Assembly (NCBI RefSeq): GCF_001887355.1
Contig: NZ_MPIN01000001.1
Span: 434,001 to 498,000 of the forward strand
Direction: 5' to 3'
DNA from: Cystobacter ferrugineus
Lineage (GTDB): Bacteria > Myxococcota > Myxococcia > Myxococcales > Myxococcaceae
Length of the DNA: 64,000 bases
Shown: positions 47,447 to 55,378 of the stretch, in pieces
Position numbering within the stretch: the first letter of the stretch is position 1
Layout of the letters: each line of letters opens with the position of its first letter
Position numbers and translations under genes: made by a program
The notes under the pieces: generated by a model
Database searches by the model: none
Told to the model about the DNA's origin: nothing
Seen by the model: the letters and a program-made list of their open reading frames with translations, nothing else

Positions 47447-50400
47447 CTACTCGACGATCACGAACTCCACGCGCCGGTTGTTGGCGCGGCCCTCGGGCGT
47501 GCCGTTGGTGTCGATGGGCTTGGTCATGCCGAAGCCCTCCGACGCGAGCCGCTCGGGAGCGATGCCCTTCTGGATGAGGTACTCGAGCACCCACTTCGCC
47601 CGGCGGGCCGACAGGTCCTTGTTGTAGGACGCCTTGCCCGCGTTGTCCGTGTGGGCCTCGACCCGCAGCTTCTTGATGTCCGGGTTGGTGTGGAGCACCT
47701 CGTACACCTGATCGAGGATGGGCAGGGACTCGGTGATGGCGTTGTCCTTGTTGATGGCGAAGTACACCTTGTCGAGCGTGCGCAGCTTGCCCTTCTCGAC
47801 GACCACCTTGGGCGGCGCGGGAGGAGGCGGCGGGGGCGGCGCGGTGACGGTCACCACGACCGTGGCCGTGGCCGTGCGCCCGTCATTGCCCGAGACGCGG
47901 TAGGTGAACGTGTCCTGGCCGGAGAAGCTCTCGCGGGCGGTGTAGCGCAGGGTGCCGTCGGTGGCGGCCTCCACGCGGCCCTCCTTGGCGCTGCCCACCT
48001 CGTCCACGCGCAGGGACTCGCCGGGCTGGCCCTCGTCGTTGCCCAGCACCGTGAGGTCGATGGACTGGCCCGCGAGCACCTGACCCGAATCATCCCGCGC
48101 GATGATCGCGGGAGGAGGCGGGGGAGGCGGAGGAGGTGGGGCGACGACGACGGGCGCCGGCTTCGGACGGGGTGGGGTGTCCGAGGGCGCGTAGCTCAGG
48201 GCCGCGAGCAGCCGGTAGCGCGGCGTGCCGTAGCCGTTGGTGAGGCCCGGGCCACCGCCCACGGTCGCTTCCAGGTTCTTGAGGAAGCCCCAGCGCAGGG
48301 CCAGCAGCAGCTCCAGGGGGTTCGTGGGCACCGAGGGCCGCCGCAGACCCACCTCACCGGCCAGCGTGGCGAGGAGGGCGAGCTTGTGCTGGGGCACCAG
48401 GTCCACCTTGCCGCCGACGCCGTAGGTGATCGCCGTGCCGAGGTTCAGGTTGTAGAACTGCTGAGCGCGGGCGAGGTAGAGGCCCACGTTGGCCATGAGG
48501 GCGGAGCCCCGCTCGCCGCGCCACTCTCCCGCGAGGGTGGGATTGAAGGTGACGCTGCCCGTTCCCGCGTAGGAGTCCCGGGGCGCGGTGGGGAAGGAGA
48601 AGGGCAGCGACAGCGAGAGTCCCAGATTCTGGGAGCGCACCAGCGCCGTCTTCAGGTTCAGGCGCAGGTCGGAGATGGCCGTGGTGACGCCCGTGCTTCC
48701 GAACCGGGGGTTCACCGTGTTGGGGCCCCCCGTGTTCTGGGAGAGCAGCACCGGGATGGCCGCGCCGAGCTCGAACCGGTCGAACAGCGCCACCGAGCCC
48801 GCCAGCGTGAGGAACGCCTGCCGGCCCACGATCAGCCGCTGGTAGCGCGAGTCCTCGCTGGACACGAGCCGCAGGGGCTGGTTGGCGTAGTCCACGAAGA
48901 GCCGGCCACTGACGGTCAGGTGGTCCGGCACCCGCGCGGACTGGACGCCGAGGAGGTCATCCCGGCCGGGCTGCGCCTGGAAGCGCTGCACGAGAAACGA
49001 GCGCCCCAGGTCCCCCTGGGCCTGGGACACCATGGGGACCGTGGCCACCGCGGCGGCGGCGGCGGCCACCGTGCTCCGGCGGCGGCGCAGCCACAGGGCG
49101 AGCGAGCTGAGCAGCAGCGGCAATCCCGCGCCGGCACCGCCCGTGCTGGAGCAGCCACTGCCCTCGACGAGCAACGTGGAATCCGGCTTGCACTCGCCGG
49201 ACAGGCAGACCGAGCCCTCGGCGCACTGCGCGTCGGAGGTGCAGGAGGAGAGGCAGGCGACCTCACCGCAGACGTAGTCGCCGCAGCTTTGCGTCTCCTG
49301 GGTACAGGTACCCGCGCCGTTACAGGTGCCGCTGGAGATGCTGACGCCCTCGGAGCAGCTCGCGTCGCCACACTGCACGGAATCCCGCGGGTAGGAGCAG
49401 GTGTCGCGCACCGTGCCATCGCAGACGCCACCGCACACGGTGCCATCCGAGCCGCACGCGGGACGTCCGCCCTGGGGCGCGCCCGTCACCGCGGTGCAGG
49501 TGCCGACGGAGCCCTCGGCGTTGCAGGCCTCGCACTGGCCCTGGCACGCGGTGTCGCAGCACACGCCGTCCGCGCACAGGCCGGTGGAGCACTCACTGTC
49601 CTGGGTGCACGCTCCGCCCTGGTCCGTGCCCGGGCGCTGGGTGAAGAGGGCGCTCAGCTCGTGGGGTCCGGTGACGTTTGTGATGATGTACTGGCCGCCC
49701 GTGACGGACGTGGAGACCTGCGCGCCGTTGTCCGTGAGCGAGCTCAGGTCGTAGCCCGGCCGTGGGGTGACGGTGCAGGTGACGGACTGGCCGTACAGGA
49801 CAGGCGAGGGGCAGGTGATGGTGCCGCCCGGGCCGCTGCTGGTGGTGATGTCGTACTTGATGGGCTCGAAGCGCGCGGTGACGGTGGTCGCCTGGTCGAC
49901 CGAGACGGTGCAGGGGTTGGCCGTGCCCGAGCAGCCGCCGCTCCAGCCGACGAAGACACTGCCGGGCGCCGCGGTGGCGGTGAGGCTCACCTGGGTGCCC
50001 GCGAGGAAGTCCGCGCTGCTCGTGGTGCAGTTCACATCGCACTGGATGGCCGTGGGGCTGCTGACGATGGTGCCCTGGCCCCCGCCCGTTGGATCCTTCT
50101 CCACCGTGAGGGTCGCGAGGGTGCCGATGCCATTGGAATCGACGGCCACGTTGTTGGTGTCGTTCGGATCCTGGACGTCCGTGGGAGGCGAGATCTGCGC
50201 GCGGTTGACGAGCGTGCCCGAGCCCGAGCCGGGAACGACCCTGGCATCGATCGAGTAGGTGAGCTTGCCACCCGAGGGGATGTCGACGGTGGAGTGGATG
50301 GGGCCCGTGCCCGTGGCCGCCGGGCAGGTGGCGCCGCCGGTGGCGGTGCACGTCCAGGTGACGTCGGTGAGCTCGGGGGGGAAGTCCTCATCGAGGGAGG

Positions 50401-51676
50401 CGCCCGTGACGCCAGCGGGGCCGTTGTTGGAGGCGACGAGCGTGTAGTGGACGGGCTTGTCCCAGCCCACGCCCACGACGTTGTCACTGAGCGAGACGGC
50501 GAGATCCGCGTAGGTGACGCCCGTGCTCACGGTCGTCTCCACCAGGGGCCCGATGAGCGGGGACACGCCCTGGCCCTGGACGTTGTAGTTGCCGTGGGAC
50601 ACCTTCTCGGTGGCCGTTGGATCGATGTGCACCTTCATGTCGAACTGGGTGCTGGCGGTGGGATTGAGCGTGCCCAGGTCGCACGTCACCGTGCGGGTGG
50701 CGTCGTCGTAGTTGCACGTCGCGCCCGGCGGCGGATGGATGGACACGAACTCGGTCTGATCCGGCACGACGATGGTGACCTGGGTGTTGTTCACCGCGCC
50801 GTCGCCCGAGTTCTTCACGAGATAGGTGTAGGTGAGATCCGAGTCCACGTTGGCCGAGCGGGGGGCGCTGGCGGCGATGGACAGGCCGGGCAGGAACGCG
50901 CCGAAGCCGTCCACGTACACGTGGCCCCAGTGGCCGCCCGGCTGGCAACCGGCGGCGATGACCTCGAGCTCCACGGTGTCACCCACGGCGAGGCGCGCGT
51001 CACCCGGCGCCACGTCGATGGCCTGCCAGTCGGTGTACTGCACGTCACCCAGCGTCTTCCACGGAACGCCCGTCTGGTTGGCGAAGTTGAAGGTGGACCA
51101 GAGCTGCGTGTTGCGCGTCACGTTGCGCAGGGAGATGAAGAAGTAGGGCTGCTGGTCCGCGGTGTGGTTCGGGGCCTGGAGCACCGGCGCGATGGCGAAG
51201 CGCACGTGCACCTTGCCATCGGCCGGATCCACGTCGGACGAGGCGAGCGTGGTCGACTGCACCAGCCGGTTGACGTTCCTGTTCTTGCCCGACTCGTTCA
51301 CCACCGCGGCCCATTGGCCATAGCGGGGCCAGCGCAGGGATGCCGCCGCGCTCAGGCCGGCGGGAATCTCTGTCTCCGGGCCTCCGGCGGCCCGCCGCGC
51401 GAAGGTGTAGTTGGTGCCACCGCTCTGGAGGTTGAGGCTGTCCCGGCTGGTGACGGGCAGGGTGATGCCGGGGTTGAGGTTGGTGGCGACACTCCAGCCG
51501 TTGAGCGTGCCCTCCTCGAAGCTGCCGTTGTCGAAGAGCGGCTGGGCGCTGTGGACGTTCGCCGTGGTGGGCGGCGAGGCGGGTTCGTCACGCGTACAAC
51601 CCGCGGTACTGGCCAGCAGCAGCGCGAGCACCGCGTAATGTGCACGATGGATCGAGGATGGAGTGTTTCGGGTCAT
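47447..51676 (-). CDS. Surface/OmpA fusion: DUF11, Cys-rich repeats, MYXO-CTERM-like segment, beta-barrel, OmpA
   Basis: 1409 aa. Order: lipobox STAGC (Cys27); a DUF642-like domain starting FDNGSFEEGTLNGW; DUF11 repeats (about 230-520); a bacterial Ig/InlB-like repeat (LTATAAPGSVFVGWSGGCSG); Cys-rich EGF-like repeats at about 690-830; a MYXO-CTERM-like segment at about 838-865 (GCSSTGGAGAGLPLLL, then LALWLRRRR); at once a second signal-like stretch ending VSQAQ; a beta-barrel of about 280 residues; a Pro run; an Ig/cadherin-like domain; a second Pro run; and an OmpA peptidoglycan-binding domain (VEAHTDNAGKASYNKDLSAR). The first half resembles MYXO-CTERM proteins such as TraA in layout, the second half TraB. 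The ATG at 51676 begins the signal peptide. Confidence 0.85.
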   Translation of the reverse strand: MTRNTPSSIHRAHYAVLALLLASTAGCTRDEPASPPTTANVHSAQPLFDNGSFEEGTLNGWSVATNLNPGITLPVTSRDSLNLQSGGTNYTFARRAAGGPETEIPAGLSAAASLRWPRYGQWAAVVNESGKNRNVNRLVQSTTLASSDVDPADGKVHVRFAIAPVLQAPNHTADQQPYFFISLRNVTRNTQLWSTFNFANQTGVPWKTLGDVQYTDWQAIDVAPGDARLAVGDTVELEVIAAGCQPGGHWGHVYVDGFGAFLPGLSIAASAPRSANVDSDLTYTYLVKNSGDGAVNNTQVTIVVPDQTEFVSIHPPPGATCNYDDATRTVTCDLGTLNPTASTQFDMKVHIDPTATEKVSHGNYNVQGQGVSPLIGPLVETTVSTGVTYADLAVSLSDNVVGVGWDKPVHYTLVASNNGPAGVTGASLDEDFPPELTDVTWTCTATGGATCPAATGTGPIHSTVDIPSGGKLTYSIDARVVPGSGSGTLVNRAQISPPTDVQDPNDTNNVAVDSNGIGTLATLTVEKDPTGGGQGTIVSSPTAIQCDVNCTTSSADFLAGTQVSLTATAAPGSVFVGWSGGCSGTANPCTVSVDQATTVTARFEPIKYDITTSSGPGGTITCPSPVLYGQSVTCTVTPRPGYDLSSLTDNGAQVSTSVTGGQYIITNVTGPHELSALFTQRPGTDQGGACTQDSECSTGLCADGVCCDTACQGQCEACNAEGSVGTCTAVTGAPQGGRPACGSDGTVCGGVCDGTVRDTCSYPRDSVQCGDASCSEGVSISSGTCNGAGTCTQETQSCGDYVCGEVACLSSCTSDAQCAEGSVCLSGECKPDSTLLVEGSGCSSTGGAGAGLPLLLSSLALWLRRRRSTVAAAAAAVATVPMVSQAQGDLGRSFLVQRFQAQPGRDDLLGVQSARVPDHLTVSGRLFVDYANQPLRLVSSEDSRYQRLIVGRQAFLTLAGSVALFDRFELGAAIPVLLSQNTGGPNTVNPRFGSTGVTTAISDLRLNLKTALVRSQNLGLSLSLPFSFPTAPRDSYAGTGSVTFNPTLAGEWRGERGSALMANVGLYLARAQQFYNLNLGTAITYGVGGKVDLVPQHKLALLATLAGEVGLRRPSVPTNPLELLLALRWGFLKNLEATVGGGPGLTNGYGTPRYRLLAALSYAPSDTPPRPKPAPVVVAPPPPPPPPPPAIIARDDSGQVLAGQSIDLTVLGNDEGQPGESLRVDEVGSAKEGRVEAATDGTLRYTARESFSGQDTFTYRVSGNDGRTATATVVVTVTAPPPPPPPAPPKVVVEKGKLRTLDKVYFAINKDNAITESLPILDQVYEVLHTNPDIKKLRVEAHTDNAGKASYNKDLSARRAKWVLEYLIQKGIAPERLASEGFGMTKPIDTNGTPEGRANNRRVEFVIVE

Positions 51677-51839: not shown

Positions 51840-53060
51840 CTAGAACGCCAGGGGCAGGCTCACCAGCCCGCGGGCCTGGGCACTCGGGCGCCATGCGAGC
51901 TTCTCGGGCGCCGTGGCCACACGCAGCTCCGGGAGCCGCTCCAGCAGCAGCTCCAAGGTGACGATGGCCTCCAGCCGGGCCAGGGGCGCTCCCAGACAGA
52001 AGTGGATGCCATGGCCGAAGCCCACGTGCTTGTTGGGCGTGCGCCCCACGTCGAACCGGTCCGGCTCGGCGAACTGCTCGGTATCCCGGTCCGCGGCCAG
52101 GTAGTTCACCCGGACGGCCTCATGGGCCTGGATGTGCTGGCCGTGCAGCTCCAGGTCCTCCTTCGCGAAGCGCAGGATGCTCAGCTCGAACGGGCCGCAG
52201 TAGCGCAGCATCTCCTCCACCGCCGAGGGAATGAGGGAGCGATCCTCCCGCAGCCGTTGGAGCTGGTCCGGGTGCTGCAACAGCGCCAGCAGGCCGTTGC
52301 CCAACAGGTTCCCGGTCGTCTCATAACCGCCGACGAGCAACAGGAAGACCATGCTCATCAGCTCCTCGGCGCTCAGCCGATCCCCCTGCTCCTGCACGGC
52401 GATCAACGCGCTGATGAGATCGTCCCGGGGCTGCTGACGGCGCAGCTCGAAGATCTCCCCCAGGTACTTGAAGAAATTCTGGTGGGCCTCGCGTGTCTTC
52501 TCCTGGGAGTCCTTCGACGGAGGGGCGAAGAACGTCTGTGTCCACTCGCGGAACCGGTCGCGATCCTCCGGGGGAATCCCCAACAGCTCGGCGATGACGA
52601 TGACGGGCAGCGGAAAGGCGAACTCCTTGAGGAAGTCCCCTCCGGGGCCCTGGGCCCTCAGACCCTCCAGCAGCTCCGAGCAGATCTCCGTGATGCGCGG
52701 GCGCAGCTCCTCGATGCGGCGCGGGGTGAAGACCTTGGACACCAGCGAACGCATCCGCGTGTGGTCCGGCGGGTCCACGGTCAGCAGGTGCCGGCTGAGC
52801 GACCTCAGCTTATGGCCGAAGAACCGCTGCCGGACCTCCTCGGGCAGGCGGGTGGGATCCTGCGTGAAGCGCGGATCCCTCACCAGCGAGACCACATCCG
52901 CGTAGCGAGTCAGTAGCCAGAAGTGCTGCCCCAGTTGCGGATCCGTGATCCGGGCGACGGGGAACTCCTCCCGCATGCGCTTGTAGAGGGGGAAAGGGTT
53001 GGCGCGCACGTGGGGAGACCACAGCGTCTCTCCCTCCGCGAACAGGGGACTGGCCGTCAT
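51840..53060 (-). CDS. Cytochrome P450
   Basis: 406 aa bacterial class I-type P450. I-helix motif GGYETTG with the acid-alcohol-type pair replaced by Glu-Thr, ExxR in EEMLRY, and the heme loop GFGHGIHFCLGAPLAR with the thiolate Cys355. N-terminal VDPPDHTRMRSLVSKVFTPR is typical. No redox partner is adjacent. The substrate is unknown; many myxobacterial P450s modify secondary metabolites. It is divergent from tssK with 213 bp between them. Confidence 0.94.
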   Translation of the reverse strand: MTASPLFAEGETLWSPHVRANPFPLYKRMREEFPVARITDPQLGQHFWLLTRYADVVSLVRDPRFTQDPTRLPEEVRQRFFGHKLRSLSRHLLTVDPPDHTRMRSLVSKVFTPRRIEELRPRITEICSELLEGLRAQGPGGDFLKEFAFPLPVIVIAELLGIPPEDRDRFREWTQTFFAPPSKDSQEKTREAHQNFFKYLGEIFELRRQQPRDDLISALIAVQEQGDRLSAEELMSMVFLLLVGGYETTGNLLGNGLLALLQHPDQLQRLREDRSLIPSAVEEMLRYCGPFELSILRFAKEDLELHGQHIQAHEAVRVNYLAADRDTEQFAEPDRFDVGRTPNKHVGFGHGIHFCLGAPLARLEAIVTLELLLERLPELRVATAPEKLAWRPSAQARGLVSLPLAF

Positions 53061-53196
53061 GGAGCGCTCCTTCTCCTGGAAGGCTCCGAGCTTAGAACTT
53101 CGCTGCCTGGGGGTATAGAGAGCCCCTCCTTCGGGTGCGGCGCGGAGAGGGATGCGCTGGCTGGTTGCTCGACCCGGCTGGGGCAGGGCACGGCCC

Positions 53197-53206
53197 CGTC
53201 ACAACC
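53197..53206 (+). promoter_or_regulatory. CGTCACAWCC element upstream of tssK
   Basis: CGTCACAACC begins 77 bp before the tssK ATG and is followed by a pyrimidine-rich stretch (TGCCGCTTCCATCTCCATC). The same element and tail recur before tssB and hcp and, divergently, before the caspase-like gene. It could be a promoter part, an activator site or a leader signal. Confidence 0.6.
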
Positions 53207-53273
53207 TGCCGCTTCCATCTCCATCGTTCACGATGGGTGCCACTCGCCGCGAGTGACCCCAAGGAATACATTC

Positions 53274-54590
53274 ATGTCTCGCGCACACGATCTTCCCGCT
53301 GCCGTGCAGTGGCATGAGGGAATGTTGCTCGCCCCTCAGCACTTTCAACAACAGGACCGCCGTTACGAGGCGCTCCTCCAACTCCATCTCGGCCTGGCCA
53401 GGCCCTTCCACTGGGGCGTGAGCCAATTTCAGTACGATCGCTCGCTATTGCTCGCGGGCACGCTCCGGGTGCTGGAGTTGGAGGCCATTCTCCCCGATGG
53501 GCTTGTCGTCTCCTACCAGGAAGGTAGGGGAAGTGAGCTGCAGCTCGTGCTCGGAAGTCCGCGGGGTGTGGACTGGCAACGCCCGGTGCGCCTGCATGTG
53601 GCCGTGGCCTCCGGGCCGCGAGGCGGTCCTGGCCCCAGCCGCTTCATCTCCACCACGAGCGAGCCGCTCGCCGACGAGAGCACCGGCGACATGCCTCTGC
53701 GCATCGCCCAGCTCCAACCACGGCTCGAGCTGTTCGCGGGCCCTCCCCCCGCTGGCTATAGCGCGCTCCCGGTGCTCGAGTTGCGCCGCGACCATGAATC
53801 CTTCTTCGTGGAGGACTACCTTCCACCCCTGCTGGCGGTGCCCTTCGATTCTCCCCTTGGAGAGCGGTGTGATCGGCTGACCCTGCGCATCCGGCAGAAG
53901 GCCGCCAGTGTGGTGGAGGAGCTGCGCGCCCGGACGGCCGAGCCCGCGCAGCACGCCGAGAGCCTGCAACTGCTGCGCTGGCTCGTCGCCGGGCTCCCCG
54001 CCTTCGAGGCCATGCTGCGTTCGGGCACGCCCCACCCCTTCGGCCTCTACCTGGCGCTGTGCACGCTGGCCGGCCACCTCGCCCCCCTGGGCGAGGGCAA
54101 GATCCCTCCCGCCTTCCCCGCCTACGAGCACCTGGAGCCCTGGCGCTCCTTCCAAGCGGTCTTCTCCTTCATCGAGAGCACACTGGAGCAAGGCGTCTCC
54201 GAGGCCTACACCCGCGTCCAGCTCCAGGCCGAGGGGGGTGGCTTCACCACGCACTTCCCGCCGAAATGGATGGATCGGGAACTGGTGCTCGAGGTGCGCG
54301 GCCGGCCCGGGACCACCCGCCAGCAGGTGCTGGGGTGGATGGCGGGCTGCCGCATCGGCTCGGAGAGCCGCCACCGGGTGATGCGCGAGACGCGCACGCT
54401 CGGGGCCCGCCGCGAGCTCATCGACAGCCGCCCGGGTCTGTTGCCCCGCTCCGGCTCGCTCCTGTTCTCCCTGGAACCCAGCTCCACCTTCATCCGCCCC
54501 AATGAGCGGCTGCTCCTGGAGAACCTCCTCGAGCCGGGCGAGGTGCATGCCCCCGCCGAGATCTTCCTGCTCATCCGCAACGACACCTGA
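53274..54590 (+). CDS. tssK: T6SS baseplate subunit TssK
   Basis: 438 aa. N-terminal family start VQWHEGMLLAPQHFQQQDRR, YEALLQLHLG and the LELEAILPDG block; C-terminal FSLEPSSTFIRPNERLLLEN. TssK links the baseplate wedge (TssF/G) to the TssLM membrane complex. The ATG at 53274 has AAGGA 8 nt upstream; the longer open frame from 52923 is rejected because homology starts here. First gene of a tssK-L-M-A-E transcription unit. Confidence 0.95.
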   Translation: MSRAHDLPAAVQWHEGMLLAPQHFQQQDRRYEALLQLHLGLARPFHWGVSQFQYDRSLLLAGTLRVLELEAILPDGLVVSYQEGRGSELQLVLGSPRGVDWQRPVRLHVAVASGPRGGPGPSRFISTTSEPLADESTGDMPLRIAQLQPRLELFAGPPPAGYSALPVLELRRDHESFFVEDYLPPLLAVPFDSPLGERCDRLTLRIRQKAASVVEELRARTAEPAQHAESLQLLRWLVAGLPAFEAMLRSGTPHPFGLYLALCTLAGHLAPLGEGKIPPAFPAYEHLEPWRSFQAVFSFIESTLEQGVSEAYTRVQLQAEGGGFTTHFPPKWMDRELVLEVRGRPGTTRQQVLGWMAGCRIGSESRHRVMRETRTLGARRELIDSRPGLLPRSGSLLFSLEPSSTFIRPNERLLLENLLEPGEVHAPAEIFLLIRNDT

Positions 54591-54595
54591 CTCCC

Positions 54596-55378
54596 ATGCG
54601 ACATCCAGCCCTTCCCACCGATTTCGAAATGCTCGGAGGCTCCCCCCTGCTCGAGAGGGCACGCGTCCTCTTCGCGGAGCTCCTCACGCTTCGCCAGCAG
54701 CTCCAGGCCATCTCCCTCCCCAGCCGCTTCGCCACGAAGGAGCCGCCGGGCCCCACCGTCGAGGAGATCTGGCGGCGGCTGCTCGAGCGCATCCAACAGC
54801 AGACCCGCACCGAGGGCACCCCGCGTGGCTCGCTCCTCGAGCGCGACCTCGAGGAGTGCCGCTACGTGCTCACCTCCTTCGCCGATGAGCTGCTCGTCCA
54901 CACTTCCTGGTACGGCCGCGAGGCCTGGCAGGCCAACCTGCTGGAGGACGAGCTCTTCGGCACCCACGAGGCCGGGGACCGCGTCTTCGCGGACGTGGAG
55001 CGGCTGCTGCGCGAGCGCAACCCAGCGCACGCCGAGCTCGCCCTCGTGTACCTGATGGCGCTCTCGCTCGGCTTCGAGGGCCGCTACCGGGGACTCGGGG
55101 CCGAAACCCTGCTCCAGGATCTGCGGCGCCAGCTCTTCCTGTTCGTCTTCCATCGGCCTCCGGAGCCGGACAGCACCCCCCGTCGCCTGGTGGACGATGC
55201 CTACGCCCACACCCGGGACGAGCGGATGGATCGCCGCTTCGCGCGCCGCTGGCCCTGGGGTGCCGCCATCGCCGCCGTGCTCGTGGGCACCTTCTCCACC
55301 AGCCTCGTCCTCCTGCGGCCCACTCCTCCCACTCCCCCCGCCGTCATCACCCCCTCCCACCTGGAGACCCGGCCATGA
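54596..55378 (+). CDS. tssL: T6SS protein TssL (DotU/IcmH family)
   Basis: 260 aa. The cytoplasmic helical domain has VLTSFADELLVHTSWYGREA, EDELFGTHEAGDRVFADVER and MALSLGFEGRYRG. One membrane helix sits near the C-terminus (about residues 220-242, WGAAIAAVLVGTFSTSLVLL), leaving a short periplasmic tail with no peptidoglycan-binding domain. It forms the inner-membrane complex with TssM, whose start overlaps its stop by 4 bp. Confidence 0.92.
   Translation: MRHPALPTDFEMLGGSPLLERARVLFAELLTLRQQLQAISLPSRFATKEPPGPTVEEIWRRLLERIQQQTRTEGTPRGSLLERDLEECRYVLTSFADELLVHTSWYGREAWQANLLEDELFGTHEAGDRVFADVERLLRERNPAHAELALVYLMALSLGFEGRYRGLGAETLLQDLRRQLFLFVFHRPPEPDSTPRRLVDDAYAHTRDERMDRRFARRWPWGAAIAAVLVGTFSTSLVLLRPTPPTPPAVITPSHLETRP

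Follow-up and report, generated by a model that had tools for sequence, protein, structure and literature searches.

An internal MYXO-CTERM followed by a second signal-peptide-like stretch joins the two halves of one surface-protein chain in Cystobacter ferrugineus: a putative double processing hinge

The 64,000-nucleotide (nt) stretch of Cystobacter ferrugineus DNA analysed here (contig NZ_MPIN01000001.1, positions 434,001 to 498,000; the window) carried on its minus strand a single open frame, which ran from an ATG at 51676 to a stop codon at 47447 with zero internal stops and in which a MYXO-CTERM was not C-terminal, 542 residues remaining before the stop. The question raised by this locus was how such a sorting tag within a chain is to be understood. 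Our answer, reached from sequence, is that the joint between the two halves of the chain is probably a double processing hinge, the gene encoding a polyprotein from which a surface module of two parts would arise. The features of the gene were as follows (window coordinates):

47447..51676, minus strand: whole gene, 1409 amino acids (aa), stop codon counted; colinear orthologues L112, L113, and L114
51599..51676, minus strand: N-terminal export signal, residues 1-26, then Cys27 (lipobox-like TAG/C), by sequence reading
50891..51538, minus strand: N-domain, residues 47-262, without Pfam or NCBIfam match, common to other surface proteins
50144..50896, minus strand: DUF11 region (Pfam), two stretches, about residues 261-511, with computed bounds for the best stretch 391-511 only and approximate region limits
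49859..50023, minus strand: InlB B-repeat-like domain (Pfam), best stretch residues 552-606; a second stretch passes too
49172..49621, minus strand: Cys-rich stalk, residues 686-835 (limits set by eye); several-fold matches in L033, L039, and L087
49076..49162, minus strand: internal MYXO-CTERM, residues 839-867 (Cys842, hydrophobic helix, RRRR 864-867), by hidden Markov model (HMM) and pattern
49019..49087, minus strand: second signal-peptide-like stretch, residues 864-886 (RRRR n-region, Ala-rich h-region, SQA/Q at 886/887)
49067..49077, minus strand: GGAG (49074-49077) plus GTG codon Val870 (49067-49069), a possible internal start, unconserved
48185..48979, minus strand: predicted outer-membrane beta-barrel, about residues 900-1164 (AlphaFold2), with a FapF-like, COG4313-like fold
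47849..48112, minus strand: Big_9 Ig-like domain (Pfam), residues 1189-1276, flanked by two Pro-rich linkers
47474..47761, minus strand: OmpA peptidoglycan-binding-type domain, residues 1306-1401 (Pfam; structure comparison)

Searched against Pfam, the 1409-aa chain yielded DUF11 twice, InlB B-repeat twice, Big_9, and OmpA, and the original prediction that a lipobox-like start, DUF11, a Cys-rich part, an internal MYXO-CTERM, a predicted barrel, an Ig-like domain, and an OmpA domain stand in one chain was confirmed. The N-terminal Cys, as read from sequence, was retained in the three orthologues (TSG/C, TSG/C, and STG/C, with TAG/C here), and the N-terminus is of a putative lipoprotein type. 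The MYXO-CTERM inside the chain was borne out by TIGR03901, which gave 22.9 bits (cut-off 20) in a genome-wide search, and by the presence of all three of its hallmarks: the invariant Cys (Cys842), the helix, and the Arg cluster (RRRR 864-867). For the MYXO-CTERM list of this genome, scores were computed for 150 of 370 first-look candidates, giving at least 26 matches; among the 26 listed, (i) 22 ended 0-7 residues before the stop, (ii) one was spurious (without Cys), and (iii) three were internal, lying 542, 606, and 553 residues ahead of the stop. All three internal matches were followed by another hydrophobic stretch, and their frames also contained a barrel and OmpA; in the chain under study this stretch reached VSQAQ at residues 883-887, as had been foreseen. 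The genome also contained a gene for the myxosortase MrtX (442.8 bits, cut-off 180).

A scan of genome contigs with a joint-plus-barrel query gave 62 loci. Together with loci from other searches and the window, 81 barrel chains were assembled (L, G, and C handles denote loci, genomes, and contigs, respectively), and 78 were kept for a tree: L038, L093, and L094 were left out (contig edges), and P0001, L123, L125, and L124 took the place of L001, L002, L003, and L007, covering the same genes in longer stretches of sequence or being the window itself. These 78 related barrels comprised 55 fused, 17 barrel-only, and 6 split arrangements. Every fused joint (55/55) displayed Gly-Cys (read off the listing), a hydrophobic helix, a basic cluster, a second hydrophobic stretch, and the motif [AVSGTILC]xA/Q; the piece from Cys to cut was 38-56 residues long (median 51; 44 here) and carried 4-9 basic and 0-2 acidic residues. 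After shuffling of each 40-residue segment (2000 rounds), the motif was found in a mean of 23.6 and a maximum of 35 of the 55 chains, versus 55 observed. The joints of L112, L113, and L114 retained GSGCS, the helix, RRRR, and AQA/Q or ALA/Q. A homologous hydrophobic stretch with the same motif was located near the N-terminus in 23/23 non-fused barrel genes as their apparent start signal, where it would act as an ordinary signal peptide; this homology is the strongest evidence that the internal stretch is cut as well. The analyses of joints and neighbourhoods used the signal-peptidase (-3,-1) rule, a hydropathy scale, and an FtsZ motif (see below).

As proposed, Sec would export the single chain, the MYXO-CTERM helix would halt in the inner membrane, leaving the Arg cluster on the inner side, and the hydrophobic stretch after it would re-enter as a second signal peptide sharing the same Arg cluster; MrtX would cut after lipidated Cys842, signal peptidase I would cut after Ala886, and the hairpin of about 44 residues would be discarded. 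The N half, brought to the cell surface by type II secretion, would stand there as an adhesin with a Cys-rich stalk and a lipid anchor; the C half, inserted by the beta-barrel assembly machinery, would form a barrel in the outer membrane that its OmpA domain ties to the wall; and the two would re-associate as a 1:1 anchored adhesin, by analogy with the outer-membrane-exchange pair TraA-TraB. What the sequences themselves show is the anatomy, the homology, the conserved elements of the joint, and an MrtX gene; both cuts, the lipidation, the surface route, the re-association, and a ligand are what we infer, the steps beyond the sequence being drawn from work on TraA and general envelope knowledge.

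Several points weigh against this hinge: (i) the isolated N half (869 aa) scored 18.6 bits with TIGR03901, below the cut-off of 20 (the sister model TIGR03382 passed at 19.4 bits, cut-off 15.85); (ii) the shuffle statistic ignores shared ancestry, and relatedness inflates its counts; (iii) Ala-rich segments yield xAQ often by chance, as the shuffled mean indicates; (iv) some parts of the joint may be kept only because in barrel-only relatives they serve as the signal peptide that the barrel needs; (v) the full chain had no orthologue in three other examined genomes of the genus and is therefore dispensable there; and (vi) no published cleavage data were found for any internal MYXO-CTERM in the available parts of the literature.

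Should the chain instead stay whole or be cut only once, the hairpin would be a lasting inner-membrane anchor and the protein a trans-envelope tether, for which the same lack of cleavage data and the joining of the halves in one frame across many lineages (55/78 tree rows) speak. If the inner membrane retained the chain, however, its adhesin could not be displayed outside; a whole chain would not need both the MYXO-CTERM Cys and the signal-peptidase-type motif kept at every fused joint; and the homologous stretch serves as an apparent start signal throughout the non-fused genes, with split versions existing besides. We consider such a tether unlikely.

The barrel half might also, or only, be made by internal initiation at the joint, with no second chain break. 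The GTG after GGAG that had suggested this was indeed present (GGAG-4 nt-GTG), and in the split arrangement traB starts at the corresponding place. Against this, start codons accompanied by a Shine-Dalgarno-like match were present at 4/55 joints versus 12.7% of control windows (22-codon windows from the same genes), this gene providing one of the four and the three orthologues none (0/3). Internal initiation was not sustained by these counts and was rejected as the main route; it is improbable.

The original prediction had further taken the chain for a natural fusion of a TraA/TraB pair. One half of this comparison held: the barrel-OmpA half was homologous to the genome's own TraB (31% identity in the barrel part, 44% in OmpA), it had the TraB-type layout of signal-peptide-like stretch (internal here), predicted barrel, and OmpA, and by sequence it is a distant TraB relative, with 243.2 bits for the TraB model (NF033763, cut-off 700). 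The other half did not: residues 1-869 gave no match to the TraA model (NF033759, cut-off 750) at E <= 0.01, and BLAST of the N half against TraA gave short matches only, the best in the Cys-rich part. As controls, the genome's own TraA and TraB scored 1035.3 and 969.5 bits, respectively, and TraB sat on a long starred branch of the tree. Membership as a TraA-TraB fusion was rejected, as the chain stayed below both HMM cut-offs and its BLAST matches were short; that it is a fused pair running outer-membrane exchange, for all the identity of its C half and the same overall layout, is very improbable in a genome with traA and traB of its own.

Within the genus, at L025, the traA and traB genes overlapped as ATGA directly past the MYXO-CTERM Arg codons. 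According to the available parts of the papers cited here, traA and traB of Myxococcus xanthus have a four-base overlap (PMC3325183), TraA and TraB are present 1:1 in foci, with TraB anchoring the pair to the wall in the authors' model (PMC12045341), and MrtX cleavage of TraA requires the MYXO-CTERM cysteines (PMC11980579). By analogy, split TraAB suggests a role for the two halves after parting, without making the chain a TraAB.

The orthologues L112 (G051), L113 (G057), and L114 (G006) aligned with residues 17-1409, 17-1409, and 26-1409 at 69, 68, and 66% identity, respectively, and were in frame across the joint, with a single one-residue gap inside it. L039 (uncultured bin) aligned over both halves (residues 7-829 at 40% and 896-1409 at 36%) and had identical Pfam domains, and the N-domain, MYXO-CTERM, and barrel-OmpA were joined also in L118, L119, and L121; because all these share the layout, the joined chain is old and not an error. 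A sequencing error or decaying gene, to which the three genus genomes without the full chain might point, is hardly credible beside near full-length orthologues in frame through the joint, and an assembly artefact is refuted by the same L112-L114.

On the tree, which was built by a quick method and had some long branches (L121, L090, and L124 among others), the states fused, split, and barrel-only required 6 changes versus a shuffled mean of 21.4, counts that do not separate gain from loss. The studied gene and its three orthologues formed a starred clade, apart from the TraB clade and that of MXAN_5598 (see below). The single-chain form was spread over many lineages as an old form, and a recent fusion was not upheld. 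A long-standing single-chain family without any MYXO-CTERM processing had been named in advance as a finding that would count against the proposal; this applies in part, the family being an old one whose members nevertheless retain the Cys/helix/Arg pattern. Relatives in which each half has a gene of its own beside the other, which had been suggested for comparison, were found as the 6 split loci of the 78: four TraA/TraB loci plus L067 and L084. In the latter two, a giant open reading frame (ORF) ended in a MYXO-CTERM and the first Met of the barrel ORF followed 123 and 122 nt later, respectively. Exodomain lengths are only lower bounds, because many fused frames were cut by contig or locus ends.

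Four barrel-only loci (L051, L053, L077, and L078; L051 so labelled although its contig ends before the frame does) showed, by eye, apparent decayed repeat remnants ahead of the signal, and it is possible that there the adhesin half was lost and the barrel kept; L053 and L078 lay close to a response-regulator-like ORF (named by eye). A downstream FtsZ motif marked the MXAN_5598 clade in 26 loci, namely 25 fused rows plus L030 (a second fetch of the L019 gene). The 25 fused genes (L034, L036, L037, L040-L043, etc.) ended about 0.5-0.8 kb before the motif and came from Myxococcus and Corallococcus records, also from Archangium (L061) and Hyalangium (L086). Both L041 and L084 belonged to the record 'Comamonas sp. 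KCTC 72670' and were nested in Myxococcus clades; this record is probably mislabelled or mixed.

Pairing of the two kinds of half was also seen outside fused genes. Of the 12 recognised barrel-OmpA genes in this genome (OmpA places without a recognised barrel were left out of the count), 10 were fused with or adjoined a MYXO-CTERM gene: three fused, traAB, five tandem pairs [L140 (C5), L141 (C5), L142 (C22), L143 (C6), and L144 (C11)], and one divergent pair [L145 (C3)]; the genes at C2:806 kb and C5:679 kb had no such partner. In the tandem pairs, the barrel gene came first, the adhesin's first possible start followed 20-33 nt past the barrel-gene stop, and the large downstream gene ended in a MYXO-CTERM or MYXO-CTERM-like tail (in L143 the MYXO-CTERM-like tail of the adjacent gene was outside the TIGR03901 list, the listed one being that of the next gene). 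For five further genomes, 40 barrel places among the matches listed were compared with the MYXO-CTERM ORFs: 21 were fused with one or lay no more than 1.5 kb away, and 19 did neither, versus a mean of 0.64 and at most 4 under random placement (2000 rounds). The MYXO-CTERM list of these five genomes held only matches at E <= 0.1, and because the known internal MYXO-CTERM L022 (G002) was missing from it, fusions were undercounted. Fusion in some lineages and adjacency in others is a classical sign of partners.

The N-domain at the other end of the chain was present in 16 of 58 genomes searched within the family and was attached to other C-terminal parts in L017, L115, and L116; because it occurs with differing C-terminal parts, exodomains are swapped. 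It showed invariant Asp/His/Cys/Gly residues. An NCBIfam search of 11/11 members gave zero matches at E <= 0.01, a comparison with PDB sequences gave one match at chance level (E 0.42), and a single-sequence structure model was too poor for use [predicted local distance difference test score (pLDDT) 41]. Upstream (window 51840-55378), a same-strand gene resembling cytochrome P450 ended 163 nt before the start codon, and type VI secretion-like genes (TssK/TssL-like) came after it. The five window neighbours (P450, FAD-monooxygenase, A2M, TssK, and TssL, all named by eye) gave no tblastn match at E 1e-5 against the short loci L112-L114.

ORFs with internal MYXO-CTERM motifs have been noted in rare cases (Guo, Haft & Wall 2025, PMC11980579), and the available parts of that paper point out MXAN_5598 of M. 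xanthus, with an adhesin region, internal MYXO-CTERM, barrel, and OmpA, compare its layout to TraA and TraB taken together, and propose that its N part is processed and surface-anchored; these parts contain no mention of a second signal peptide for MXAN_5598. MXAN_5598 is also listed among outer-membrane-vesicle proteins as an OmpA domain protein (PMC4158809, part available). The studied gene shares with it an exodomain, internal MYXO-CTERM, barrel, and OmpA in one frame and is a further example of a type previously described from one species, but it belongs to a separate clade and has a different exodomain. MXAN_5598 adjoins ftsA and ftsZ, and in the M. xanthus AM003 locus L036, as in L037 and L041 of its clade, the FtsZ motif lay 0.65 kb past the gene; no FtsZ motif occurred in any frame of the 64-kb window, where no search for ftsA was made. 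No paper treating tandem barrel/MYXO-CTERM pairs, or joints of this type with a second signal peptide, was found by title or abstract, a weak sign of absence as subscription journals were mostly outside the search. New here are the family-wide joint, the series of fused, split, and barrel-only forms, and the pairing of MYXO-CTERM and barrel-OmpA genes.

Polyproteins cut at built-in sorting signals have, to our knowledge, rarely been described in bacteria. Judged from sequence and analogy, the chances are about even that the joint is a general bacterial polyprotein hinge, in which one Arg cluster both ends a sorting tag and opens a second signal peptide, and with two proteases yielding matched amounts of lipid-anchored adhesin and wall-anchored barrel; TraAB would then be one split case of a larger adhesin-barrel class (fused, tandem, or divergent), comprising a large share of the genomes' MYXO-CTERM proteins. 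If so, myxobacterial surface adhesins and their wall anchors would be made 1:1 from one chain, TraAB kin recognition would be one case of the wider class, and myxosortase would act within chains as well. With fused, split, and barrel-only forms at hand in related species, the question of a functional partnership can be tested directly.

Two known systems invite comparison with the C half and the whole chain. The AlphaFold2 model of the C half (28 sequences; mean pLDDT 83, predicted template modelling score 0.54) displayed barrel strands, an Ig-like part, and OmpA. With VIA-align, the top match of the predicted barrel was FapF (Z 22.7, 225 residues, 2.7 Å), followed by the COG4313 channel (Z 22.2), KdgM-type porins, and the NalP translocator, and the C-terminus matched OmpA domains with Z up to 17.8. 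Barrels of the FapF, COG4313, KdgM, and NalP types are 12-stranded. The likeness of the C half to FapF, the COG4313 channel, and KdgM lies in the predicted barrel fold (Z 20.2-22.7), with an aligned identity of just 11-17%; such a structure match is one of fold and says nothing on function, and we know of no MYXO-CTERM partner for these barrels. As for TraA and TraB, the TraA N-terminal domain, PA14-like and variable according to the available parts of the papers, had no match in this chain; both systems have a Cys-rich stalk ending in a MYXO-CTERM and a barrel with OmpA, encoded by separate, adjacent, overlapping genes in traAB and joined in one chain here.

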